Source: Thermincola carboxydiphila
GTDB taxonomy: Bacteria; Bacillota; Thermincolia; Thermincolales; UBA2595
Assembly (NCBI GenBank): GCA_016841325.1
Contig: JAENZJ010000002.1
Location: 124,001 to 188,000 of the forward strand
DNA: 64,000 nt
Direction: 5' to 3'
The number at the start of each line of letters is the position of its first letter. Within the stretch, counting starts at the first letter, position 1. The notes under the pieces are model-generated. The model saw only the letters and a list, made by a program, of their open reading frames with translations. It ran no database searches and was not told the DNA's origin. The translations under genes were made by a program, and so were the position numbers. Positions 37,724-40,048 of this stretch are shown here, in pieces.

Positions 37724-38647
37724 ATGACTGATTTTGACGTAGTAATTATAGGTGGTGGGCCCGCGGGATTATCGGCAGGCCTGTATGCAGCCAGGGCGAA
37801 GCTGAGGACAGTTCTCCTGGAGCGGGGAATGCCCGGGGGGCAGGCTTCCACAACCGACATGATTGAAAATTATCCGGGATTTCCTGACGGGATCCCCGGC
37901 CCTGACCTGATGATGAACATGGACATACAGGCCAGACGTTTCGGGGTTGAACCGAGGTTTACCGATGTGCTTTCCGTTGCTGAGATTCCGGAGGGGGGCT
38001 TCCTGGTAAAGACCTCTGACGGTGAGATTACCACTAAAACAGTAATTATTGCAGCCGGGGCCCTGTCCAGGCCATTGGGTATCCCCGGAGAAGAAGAATT
38101 CAGGGGACGCGGGGTATCATATTGTGCTACCTGTGACGGTGCCTTTTTCCAGGGGAAAAGAGTGGCAGTGGTCGGCGGCGGTGACTCCTCAGTACAGGAA
38201 GCCATATACCTTACCAAATTTGCTGAGAAGGTATATATCATACACCGCAGGGATGAATTCAGGGCAACCAAGGTTTTGCAGGAAAAAGCCCGTGCCAATT
38301 CCCAAATAGAATTCATTATGGATTCTGTTGTCACGAATGTGGTGGGAAATGACCAGGTTGAAGCAATAAAGGTGAAAAATCTTAAGTCCGGTGAGGAAAA
38401 GGCTGTTGCTGTGGACGGAGTCTTTGTCTATATCGGAAAAGACCCCTCAACAGAGCTGTTCAGGGAGTTTGTTGATACTGATGAACGCGGCTATATCATT
38501 ACCGATGCCAGGATGCAGACATCCCGGCCGGGAGTCTTTGCGGCAGGTGATGTCCGCCAGACACCACTGCGTCAGGTGGTCACTGCTGTTGCAGACGGGG
38601 CTGTTGCGGCCGTATCGGCTGAAGAGTATATCGAGTACGTAAAGTGA
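37724..38647 (+). CDS. trxB: Thioredoxin reductase
   Basis: A 307-residue FAD/NADPH enzyme that reduces thioredoxin. The FAD Rossmann motif GGGPAGLSAG is at 10-19, the redox-active CATC at 134-137, the NADPH motif VGGGDSSVQEA around 151-161, and the C-terminal GVFAAGDVR FAD motif. It lies upstream of the selenoprotein operon, separated by a palindromic repeat and a promoter, so the two are probably expressed separately although both are thiol-redox genes. Confidence 0.95.
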   Translation: MTDFDVVIIGGGPAGLSAGLYAARAKLRTVLLERGMPGGQASTTDMIENYPGFPDGIPGPDLMMNMDIQARRFGVEPRFTDVLSVAEIPEGGFLVKTSDGEITTKTVIIAAGALSRPLGIPGEEEFRGRGVSYCATCDGAFFQGKRVAVVGGGDSSVQEAIYLTKFAEKVYIIHRRDEFRATKVLQEKARANSQIEFIMDSVVTNVVGNDQVEAIKVKNLKSGEEKAVAVDGVFVYIGKDPSTELFREFVDTDERGYIITDARMQTSRPGVFAAGDVRQTPLRQVVTAVADGAVAAVSAEEYIEYVK

Positions 38648-38668
38648 AGTAAGGGAATTTAAATAAAA

Positions 38669-38731
38669 AGACAGGGACAGTTGTACCGGATTGATGAAAA
38701 ATTGTCTTCCGGGTCACATCTGTCCCTATCT
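38669..38731. repeat. Palindromic repeat, copy D
   Basis: Imperfect arms GACAGGGACAGTTGT and, on the opposite strand, GATAGGGACAGATGTGAC, with an inner ACCGGA/TCCGGGT pairing. It follows trxB and precedes the next promoter. Confidence 0.65.
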
Positions 38732-38737
38732 TTGTTA

Positions 38738-38766
38738 TTGACATTTTTTCGGAAAAGGCTTACAAT
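38738..38766 (+). promoter_or_regulatory. Consensus promoter of the ferredoxin-selenoprotein operon
   Basis: TTGACA (38738-38743), 17-base spacer, TACAAT (38761-38766). One of the best matches to the vegetative consensus in this window. Confidence 0.85.
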
Positions 38767-38776
38767 GGGGATAGGG

Positions 38777-38791
38777 TACCCCCGGGGGGTA
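38777..38791 (+). promoter_or_regulatory. CsoR/CstR-like operator at the transcription start
   Basis: TACCCC, three central bases and GGGGTA form an almost perfect G/C-tract palindrome just downstream of the -10 box. Such operators are bound by CsoR-family repressors that sense copper or persulfides. No csoR-like gene is in this window, so the regulator would act from elsewhere. Confidence 0.5.
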
Positions 38792-38797
38792 TAGCGG

Positions 38798-38899
38798 TTG
38801 AAGAGGCAGTGGGCAGGGGTATTATCAGGAGAACCAGAAGCATTACCAGTAGATTATTATTTGTCAGGGCAGGAATTCGTCAGGGGCCGGGACACATAA
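38798..38899 (+). CDS. Possible 33-residue leader or small protein
   Basis: A TTG-started frame of 33 codons beginning about ten bases after a G-rich tract. It fills the space between operator and ferredoxin gene without interruption. Composition is ordinary and no family is recognised. It could be a short coding leader or chance. Confidence 0.3.
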   Translation: MKRQWAGVLSGEPEALPVDYYLSGQEFVRGRDT

Positions 38900-38903
38900 G
38901 CGG

Positions 38904-39107
38904 ATGGGAATGATAGTTATGGATAAAAGAGCAGTAATAATCCCGGAGAAATGCAAAATATGCAGGGTCTGCAGGGCAGGTAAGGTTTGTCCGGCTAAAG
39001 CCATCGAGCAGGAAGAGCCGGGTGAACCATACTATATTAATGCCTTTTGCCAGGGATGTGGCAAGTGTGCCGGGCATTGTCCCAACAGGGCTGTGGTTAT
39101 TATATAA
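38904..39107 (+). CDS. Small dicluster ferredoxin-like protein
   Basis: A 67-residue protein with two [4Fe-4S] motifs. The second, CQGCGKCAGHCP, is standard; the first, CKICRVCRAGKVCP, has four residues instead of three before the last Cys. Several ATGs are possible (38904, 38910, 38919) and no ribosome site decides between them. It is the first clear gene behind the CsoR/CstR-like operator and is likely the electron carrier of this small operon. Confidence 0.75.
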   Translation: MGMIVMDKRAVIIPEKCKICRVCRAGKVCPAKAIEQEEPGEPYYINAFCQGCGKCAGHCPNRAVVII

Positions 39108-39177
39108 AAAACATCTGTGCCGGCATAAAAAAGCATCTCTGCCGGGAATAAACATCAGTCGGGGAGGGCTGATATAA

Positions 39178-39369
39178 ATGGATAATGACAAAAAGTTAGC
39201 CATACTGGAAAAAGAACTTAGGGATCTGCAACAAAGGTGGCCTGCACACTCAGTCCAGCCACAAATGATTGAGGAAATGGAACGAATTGAAGATGAGATT
39301 GAACGCCTTAGGAAACTCCGCCCTCATACTGATGCCGGTATACCTCTGGAGCCAGGGGCAGGGAGGTGA
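39178..39369 (+). CDS. Small coiled protein (63 aa)
   Basis: A 63-residue helical protein, rich in Glu, Lys, Leu and Arg, with heptad-like spacing (LAILEKELRDLQQRW; MEEMERIEDEIERLRKL-like). The ATG follows GGGGAGGGC. Its stop codon TGA lies inside the ribosome site of the next gene, so it is co-translated with the selenoprotein. No family recognised. Confidence 0.6.
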   Translation: MDNDKKLAILEKELRDLQQRWPAHSVQPQMIEEMERIEDEIERLRKLRPHTDAGIPLEPGAGR

Positions 39370-39371
39370 CT

Positions 39372-39713
39372 ATGATGAGTCTGAAAGTTAAAATCCAGGT
39401 TTTTGGCTCCAGGCTGCTTGACAGTTGTTCCGGAGGCGGCTGAGGACCATCACGGTCTCAGGAAGAGACCACTGTTCTCTACAGGGAGATTTTAAGTTCC
39501 AAATATGGCAAACAGGTTTCTATTCAGTATATTGATATTCAGGATGAAGATAAGATGGCCAGTTATCCTATGGTCAGGGCAGTGCTTCAGGAAAAGCCGG
39601 TTTCTTCTCTGCCCCTTGTTGCCATTGACGGTGTTCCGGTCTGGATGGGCAGTCTTTCCTATAATTACCTGGTGAAGGAACTAAGTAAAAAGGGGATTAT
39701 GCCTGTGGCCTGA
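39372..39713 (+). CDS. Selenoprotein with YuzD/DUF1462-like thioredoxin fold (Sec at 24)
   Basis: The frame starts at ATG 39372 behind GGGAGGTGAC and has an in-frame TGA at 39441-39443, giving a 113-residue protein if read as selenocysteine. The motif is SCSGGG-Sec-GPSRS: Cys19 and Sec24. After it come EETTVLYREILSSKYG, SIQYIDIQDED and LPLVAIDGVPVWMG, with the spacing and character of YuzD-type (DUF1462) small thioredoxin-fold proteins, whose Cys pair lies at the same place. That resemblance is from memory. Both sides of the TGA are well coded and a SECIS-like hairpin lies 10 bases after it. Likely a selenium-based thiol or persulfide redox protein; partner may be thioredoxin reductase. Confidence 0.8.
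39454..39470 (+). promoter_or_regulatory. SECIS-like hairpin after the TGA of the small selenoprotein
   Basis: GGTCTC, loop AGGAA, GAGACC: a perfect 6-bp stem whose loop begins 17 bases after the TGA with G as second loop base. This fits the bacterial SECIS geometry. Confidence 0.75.
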
Positions 39714-39809
39714 CTCCAGTTCCGGTATGAGGGAGATAAGTTATTGACTTTTAGAGTGTAGTTTTATATAATTTGCACAACCGGAAAACATAGCATTGGA
39801 GGTGTTATT

Positions 39810-40016
39810 ATGCCAGCTTATGATTTCAGGTGTAAGGCTTGTGACAGTCAGTTTACCGTTAGGGTATCGATAAGTGAACGAGACAAGGTGAAGTGCCCGG
39901 AATGCGGTACTTCCAATGTAAAACAGGTCCTGACACCATTTTCTGTTACCGTCAAAGGCTCCCCGGCGAAACCTTCCTGTGACTTCGGATGTGGCTCGGG
40001 ATCAACCTTTGGCTGA
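39810..40016 (+). CDS. FmdB-family zinc-ribbon protein
   Basis: A 68-residue protein with the FmdB-type N-terminus PAYDFRCKACDSQF and a second knuckle KCPECGTSN, giving a Cys4 zinc ribbon. The C-terminus is Gly/Cys rich. The family is found near regulators and metal proteins; function is unproven. Located between the selenoprotein and the two-component system with three hairpins after it. Confidence 0.85.
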   Translation: MPAYDFRCKACDSQFTVRVSISERDKVKCPECGTSNVKQVLTPFSVTVKGSPAKPSCDFGCGSGSTFG

Positions 40017-40027
40017 GGCTAAAAATT

Positions 40028-40048
40028 AAGGACAGGTTGTCCTTTTTT
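40028..40048 (+). terminator. Intrinsic terminator after the FmdB gene
   Basis: GGACA, GGT loop, TGTCC and a T6 run (40030-40048). Confidence 0.85.

Follow-up and report, generated by a model that had tools for sequence, protein, structure and literature searches.

The window analysed here is a stretch of 64,000 nucleotides from Thermincola carboxydiphila. Within it three small genes, fdx, coil and selP, follow a promoter and a palindromic operator, with trxB upstream and fmdB downstream. The features of the locus are as follows.

37724..38647, plus strand: trxB, thioredoxin-disulfide reductase (TIGR01292 above cut-off), a recurrent neighbour of fmdB and selP
38666..38734, plus strand: hairpin separating trxB from the operon, probably the terminator of trxB (-33 kcal/mol, z -5.9)
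38738..38766, plus strand: sigma-70 promoter TTGACA-17-TACAAT, from sequence (11/12 consensus positions; kept in L045 and L046)
38776..38792, plus strand: CsoR-family type-2 operator GTACCCCCGGGGGGTAT (TAC-N9-GTA; type as in PMC3902906)
38919..39107, plus strand: fdx, small Fe-S protein (Fer4 match 2.7e-7), start perhaps 38904
39178..39369, plus strand: coil, coiled protein of 63 aa whose family is unnamed and carries an (R/K)xPAHS(V/L) motif
39372..39713, plus strand: selP, thioredoxin-fold selenoprotein with the motif DSCSGGGUGPSRSQEE, start ATG 39372 or 39375
39441..39443, plus strand: in-frame TGA of selP read as selenocysteine, residue 23 or 24 according to the start (conserved TGA; Cys in L029; selB and tRNA-Sec)
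39454..39470, plus strand: SECIS-like hairpin of selP, GGUCUC-AGGAA-GAGACC
39744..39772, plus strand: fmdB promoter TTGACT-17-TATAAT
39810..40022, plus strand: fmdB, FmdB-family zinc ribbon (TIGR02605), probably ending Gly-Sec-Gly
40028..40044, plus strand: SECIS-like hairpin of fmdB, AAGGACA-GGU-UGUCCUU, not part of the reading frame

Layout and conservation of the operon

The -35 box TTGACA (38738-38743) and the -10 box TACAAT (38761-38766) are separated by a 17 nt spacer. The palindrome TACCCCCGGGGGGTA at 38777-38791 matches TAC-N9-GTA exactly, which is the form of the type-2 operators bound by repressors of the CsoR family (PMC3902906). The original prediction had the promoter overlapping a CsoR/CstR-like palindrome. 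Both elements were confirmed but they do not overlap, as the palindrome starts 10 nt past the -10 box. The operator spans approximately the start site to +20 and is therefore inside the polymerase footprint rather than on the hexamers. The strict pattern TACCCCNNNNGGGGTA, which has a different spacing, gave no match at the operator site. No SECIS element or riboswitch was matched by Rfam anywhere in the window.

As predicted, the coil stop lies in the next ribosome binding site. The TGA (39367-39369) is immediately 3' of the selP Shine-Dalgarno sequence AGGGAGG (39360-39366), so coil and selP are probably translationally coupled. Because the strong hairpin at 38666..38734 divides trxB from the operon promoter, trxB is a separate unit. 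Its co-location, earlier taken as a sign of thiol or sulfane-sulfur chemistry, is a neighbourhood link only, and that neighbourhood recurs elsewhere. fmdB has a promoter of its own.

A synteny check of the three small genes found the order fdx-coil-selP in G001, G002 and G005, and the operator precedes fdx at the matching place in these genomes and in G008. The longer order trxB-fdx-coil-selP-fmdB-response regulator-kinase, together with the promoter and operator before fdx, is kept in three relatives, two from the same genus and one from a different genus of the family. The named relatives are Thermincola ferriacetica MAGs. The three small genes are a conserved operon of Thermincola-like anaerobes.

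The G005 operon has two extra genes inserted between fdx and coil. One encodes a MerT-like membrane protein and is interrupted by a TGA in frame (ACISU; L046 4034-4339), MerT being a listed selenocysteine family (PMC13188914, Table 1), and beside it is a gene for a lipoprotein with a rhodanese domain. In G008 (L134), a genome that is 75% complete, the operator and fdx remain while coil has no start codon and SelP is absent. Judging by this genome, coil and SelP seem to have been lost together.

The first gene product was expected to be ferredoxin-like, and the Fer4 match agrees with a 4Fe-4S ferredoxin-like protein. Fdx has one canonical CxxCxxCxxxCP site. Its N-terminal site is irregular, which makes an electron role uncertain. 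The ferredoxins of the regulon described below (38919-39107; L069, L153, L158, L161, L164) also have an irregular N-terminal site with three constant Cys, arranged C-x5-C-x5-C in most, and a fourth ligand that varies. Their N-terminal cluster is perhaps 3Fe-4S or open-site.

The coil family was present in 46/398 genomes of a phylum sample. Among the matches listed, coil was within 2.5 kb of FmdB in 18 of the 36 coil genomes with FmdB, and within 2.5 kb of SelP in 8 of the 17 with SelP. Several coil proteins are fusions. In G385, from another family, an operator is followed by a rhodanese gene and then a ferredoxin-coil fusion (L143 805-1656). In G276 coil is fused to an Fe-S protein of a type found in the regulon of the window genome, and other fusions involve a methyltransferase or further domains. 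The fusions suggest that coil may be a docking adaptor for Fe-S proteins.

Selenocysteine in SelP and probably in FmdB

The third gene was predicted to encode a selenoprotein. Every close homologue retains the in-frame TGA, as does a paralogue beside queC, and identity of up to 80% carries on past it. In the L029 homologue Cys replaces Sec (CFSGGCGP vs CSGGGUGP). The genome encodes SelB (369 bits) and tRNA-Sec (75 bits). Most homologues have a hairpin approximately 20 nt past the UGA with an AGGAA or GGC loop and a G in the apical loop; in L022 and L023 it is not clear. The queC-side paralogue has an outstanding hairpin energy (z -5.1, -4.4), the window copy a modest one (z -1.0). Since the codons are themselves constrained, covariation can prove only so much here. 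Standard annotation alone would make the TGA a true stop and the downstream part unrelated. The probability of this is negligible given the identity past the TGA, the TGA in the paralogue and orthologues, the Cys homologue, the hairpin and the selenocysteine machinery. We regard the operon and selenocysteine decoding of selP as nearly certain.

No Pfam or NCBIfam model reached its cut-off with SelP or the wider family. The ArsD models PF06953 (25.4 vs 27) and NF033727 (24.2 vs 90) and the DUF1462 model PF07315 (18.6 vs 25) all fell short, the ArsD match being weak (1.9e-5). The SelP motif and domain are absent from the 119 bacterial selenoprotein families and subfamilies of a 2026 inventory (PMC13188914, Table 1), and a literature search for ArsD-like selenoproteins found none. 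SelP is a selenoprotein family missing from current models and from that inventory. An AlphaFold model (pLDDT 84.6, weak in the loop ahead of Sec) is thioredoxin-like and nearest to the DUF1462 structure 1xg8 and to ArsD, with Z of 9.4-9.7.

A second SelP paralogue with a TGA is on the minus strand at L052 5177-5500 (G000:C28) and has a very strong SECIS-like hairpin. The paralogue adjoins queC in several genomes of the family. More distant relatives (L031, L034, L035, L036, L037, L040, L041) have the TGA at differing places near the N-terminus, in motifs such as GGGU, HVGUGP and DCGUGC, and belong to a wider group of thioredoxin-fold selenoproteins that has no family model.

The neighbouring FmdB is a second probable selenoprotein, which the original prediction missed. 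It scores 64.9 with TIGR02605 (cut-off 31.3), and its end reads TFG-UGA-GGC-UAA, with the TGA at 40014-40016. Syntenic fmdB genes in the class and in G013, G025, G131, G056, G094 and G128 likewise have a TGA, a stop a few codons on and a hairpin with a GG-containing loop. A survey of tails was made with 90 FmdB genes from the phylum sample, 69 ending in TGA and 21 in TAA or TAG. Another in-frame stop followed no more than four codons on in 68/69 TGA-ended genes and 4/21 of the others (Fisher p 1e-13, sequences treated as independent). Hairpins with a G(G/T)N loop, defined by at least 5 pairs and a loop at nt 17-28 counted from the U of UGA, were found in 48/69 TGA-ended genes, 0/21 TAA/TAG-ended genes and 1.9% of shuffles. 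The 48 hairpins sit largely or wholly past the second stop, and every one of them forms stem pairs 2 to 5, with several pair types. Pairs were counted in a loop-anchored register because MAFFT shifted three hairpins by one column. TAA/TAG-ended FmdB proteins have mostly Cys-rich tails, including the second copies in G056, G094 and G128. That the hairpin is a terminator was considered and rejected: a T-run is missing from many homologues, and neither the loop G nor its spacing from the UGA varies much.

From these sequence features, the fmdB beside the operon probably ends Gly-Sec-Gly and has its own SECIS element, and the predicted Gly-Sec-Gly-type tail is common across the phylum sample. In the literature examined only a CxxU/UxxU form of FmdB selenoprotein was found, with no C-terminal form. 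Where the true stop follows a Sec codon after only one to a few residues, ordinary annotation loses that codon, so FmdB may be mis-ended. This result is the broader one, as a common small Clostridia-type protein may be mis-ended in many genomes.

Operator sites, regulon and candidate repressor

Ten exact operator sites were found genome-wide. A full promoter (-10 with a -35 at 16-18 nt) stands 6-11 nt ahead of 8/10 of these sites, compared with 1.5% of random positions. Four relatives together had 34 exact sites, compared with 7 for reversed-pattern controls. A one-mismatch search was near background (51 vs 40), so the analysis kept to exact sites.

The genes that recur behind the operator are fdx-coil-selP, a second ferredoxin, an Fe-S protein with cytochrome b, an SBF symporter, YeeE/YedE, HD-GYP, MFS and GlcD-like genes, and in G005 YgaP-TM is also behind an operator. 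Sulfur-family domains at operator-linked genes are YeeE/YedE (PF04143), YgaP-TM (PF11127) and rhodanese (PF00581). The HD-GYP, MFS and GlcD-like targets have no obvious sulfur role, which counts against a sulfur model. At the operator sites examined, sqr and persulfide dioxygenase genes were not seen. At L179 3610-7821 (G000:C31), in the genome of the window, the operator precedes the Fe-S protein and cytochrome b genes, followed by mobA, fdhD and mobB, hinting at molybdoenzyme maturation in the regulon.

A search for CsoR/CstR genes, proposed with the original prediction, found two PF02583 genes. csoR1 adjoins copA and its product has the C-H-C copper ligands. CsoR2 (89.2 bits, cut-off 22.8) has Tyr at the position of the copper His, keeps both conserved Cys and has an extra Cys. 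All aligned CsoR2-type sequences have Tyr at this ligand position; 4m1p, 4adz and 5fmn have His there, and 7mq1, which we take to be pneumococcal CstR, has Asn. The operator is directly behind the csoR2 -10 box in 10/10 genomes of the class, a count that includes genomes whose site departs from the 17-mer at two to four positions. No operator was found at copper-type csoR1 promoters in any genome checked. CsoR2 is very likely the repressor acting at the operator of fdx-coil-selP, judging by these promoters.

The sensor had been predicted to respond to copper or persulfide. The operator type is common to copper CsoR proteins (PMC3902906), as control by a classical CsoR would have it. However, the C-H-C CsoR on the copA side is without the operator in every genome checked, and csoR2, the repressor gene that carries it, encodes no copper His. 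Copper control is thus highly improbable. Sulfane sulfur (per- or polysulfide) is the likelier half of that prediction and the probable effector of CsoR2. It is the best reading because YeeE/YedE, YgaP-TM and rhodanese, all co-regulated, belong to families that handle sulfur. CsoR-type sulfane-sulfur sensors include ScCsoR of Streptomyces (PMC7533328) and YrkD of Bacillus (PMC9918477), and one such sensor binds ATACCn6GGTAT (PMC7533328, PMC9918477). A cautionary case is the CsoR-like sulfur-oxidation regulator of Thermus, whose DNA binding was not lost with NaHS in vitro (PMC10318464). Since CsoR2 has Tyr where the pneumococcal CstR chain has Asn, and one Cys more, its effector could also differ.

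A response to metalloids or heavy metals (arsenic, mercury) would make SelP a selenocysteine-containing chaperone of ArsD-like type, partnered by a MerT-like protein and by an exporter of the SBF family. The weak ArsD match, the ArsD-like fold, the MerT-like Sec protein of the G005 operon and the SBF-family symporter of the regulon are in keeping with this. Nevertheless, SelP has C-x4-U in place of the vicinal CC of ArsD, the neighbourhoods examined contain no ars operon, and the operon is without ars or mer resistance genes except for the MerT-like one of G005. An ACR3 exporter is expected to carry a Cys in the corresponding symporter region, and the region examined has none. YeeE, rhodanese and YgaP-TM fit sulfur better, and we consider a metalloid response improbable.

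Proposed mechanism and relation to known systems

The best overall explanation, to which we assign a probability of about 55%, is a sulfur-sensing CsoR2 operon with SelP redox-active on sulfane sulfur. CsoR2, CstR-like and autoregulated, would keep the three genes off. With more per- or polysulfide in the cytoplasm its cysteines would react, CsoR2 would come off the operator at the transcription start, and Fdx, coil and SelP would be produced. We infer that the Sec of SelP, paired with the Cys five positions earlier (C-x4-U), would attack sulfane sulfur as its substrate. Electrons for its regeneration would come from the small Fe-S protein, coil serving as the docking adaptor. The same thiol/sulfur system may include TrxB and the probable FmdB-type selenoprotein beside the operon.

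The reductase role of SelP is tentative, with a little under an even chance. G008, which retains the operator and fdx without SelP, is a point against it. SelP could instead be a sulfur or selenium carrier, similar to TusA or an ArsD chaperone, that passes sulfane sulfur on to other proteins, with the sulfur-sensing repressor unchanged. Linkage of SelP to TusA and YeeE in G013 and G059 and to rhodanese in G005, and a fold closest to ArsD and DUF1462, would suit a carrier, but the C-x4-U pair, the ferredoxin partner and the trxB neighbourhood point to redox cycling, and the carrier role appears unlikely. In G013 SelP is located with YeeE, TusA, coil, FmdB and a Mo-oxidoreductase.

Much work has been done on selenoproteins and on sulfane-sulfur signalling. 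The original prediction held that its combination of promoter, palindrome and genes seems undescribed, and the literature searched gave no example of a selenoprotein operon belonging to a persulfide-type regulon. A further reading, with a little under an even chance, is a selenium-based sulfane-sulfur module in which a CstR-like regulon with its own Fe-S protein, a PAHS-motif docking protein and SelP acts together with an overlooked, phylum-wide Gly-Sec-Gly FmdB.

The CsoR2 system resembles those of CstR, ScCsoR and YrkD (PMC5480029, PMC7533328, PMC9918477) in its PF02583 repressor with two conserved Cys and no copper His, the G-tract TAC-N9-GTA operator, probable autoregulation, and putative rhodanese and sulfur-transport targets. 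It differs in the Tyr at the ligand position and in a dispersed regulon of about ten sites, whose putative targets include selenoprotein and ferredoxin operons. The known systems have sqr and persulfide dioxygenase genes, whereas none were seen at the CsoR2-type sites examined.

SelP shares its thioredoxin-like fold, at the Z values given above, and weak sequence matches with DUF1462/YuzD (1xg8) and ArsD (3mwh, 3kgk). Unlike them it is below curated cut-offs, contains Sec, has C-x4-U-G-P where ArsD has vicinal Cys, and is found in another gene context. The tail of mammalian thioredoxin reductase is Gly-Cys-Sec-Gly, with Sec penultimate as in the FmdB tail; the proteins are unrelated and this is a resemblance only. 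The selenoprotein inventory lists MerT, YeeE and FmdB, the last as UxxU and not C-terminal, and with the known bacterial selenoproteins SelP has in common a thioredoxin-like fold and a UGA followed by a downstream G-loop hairpin (PMC13188914).
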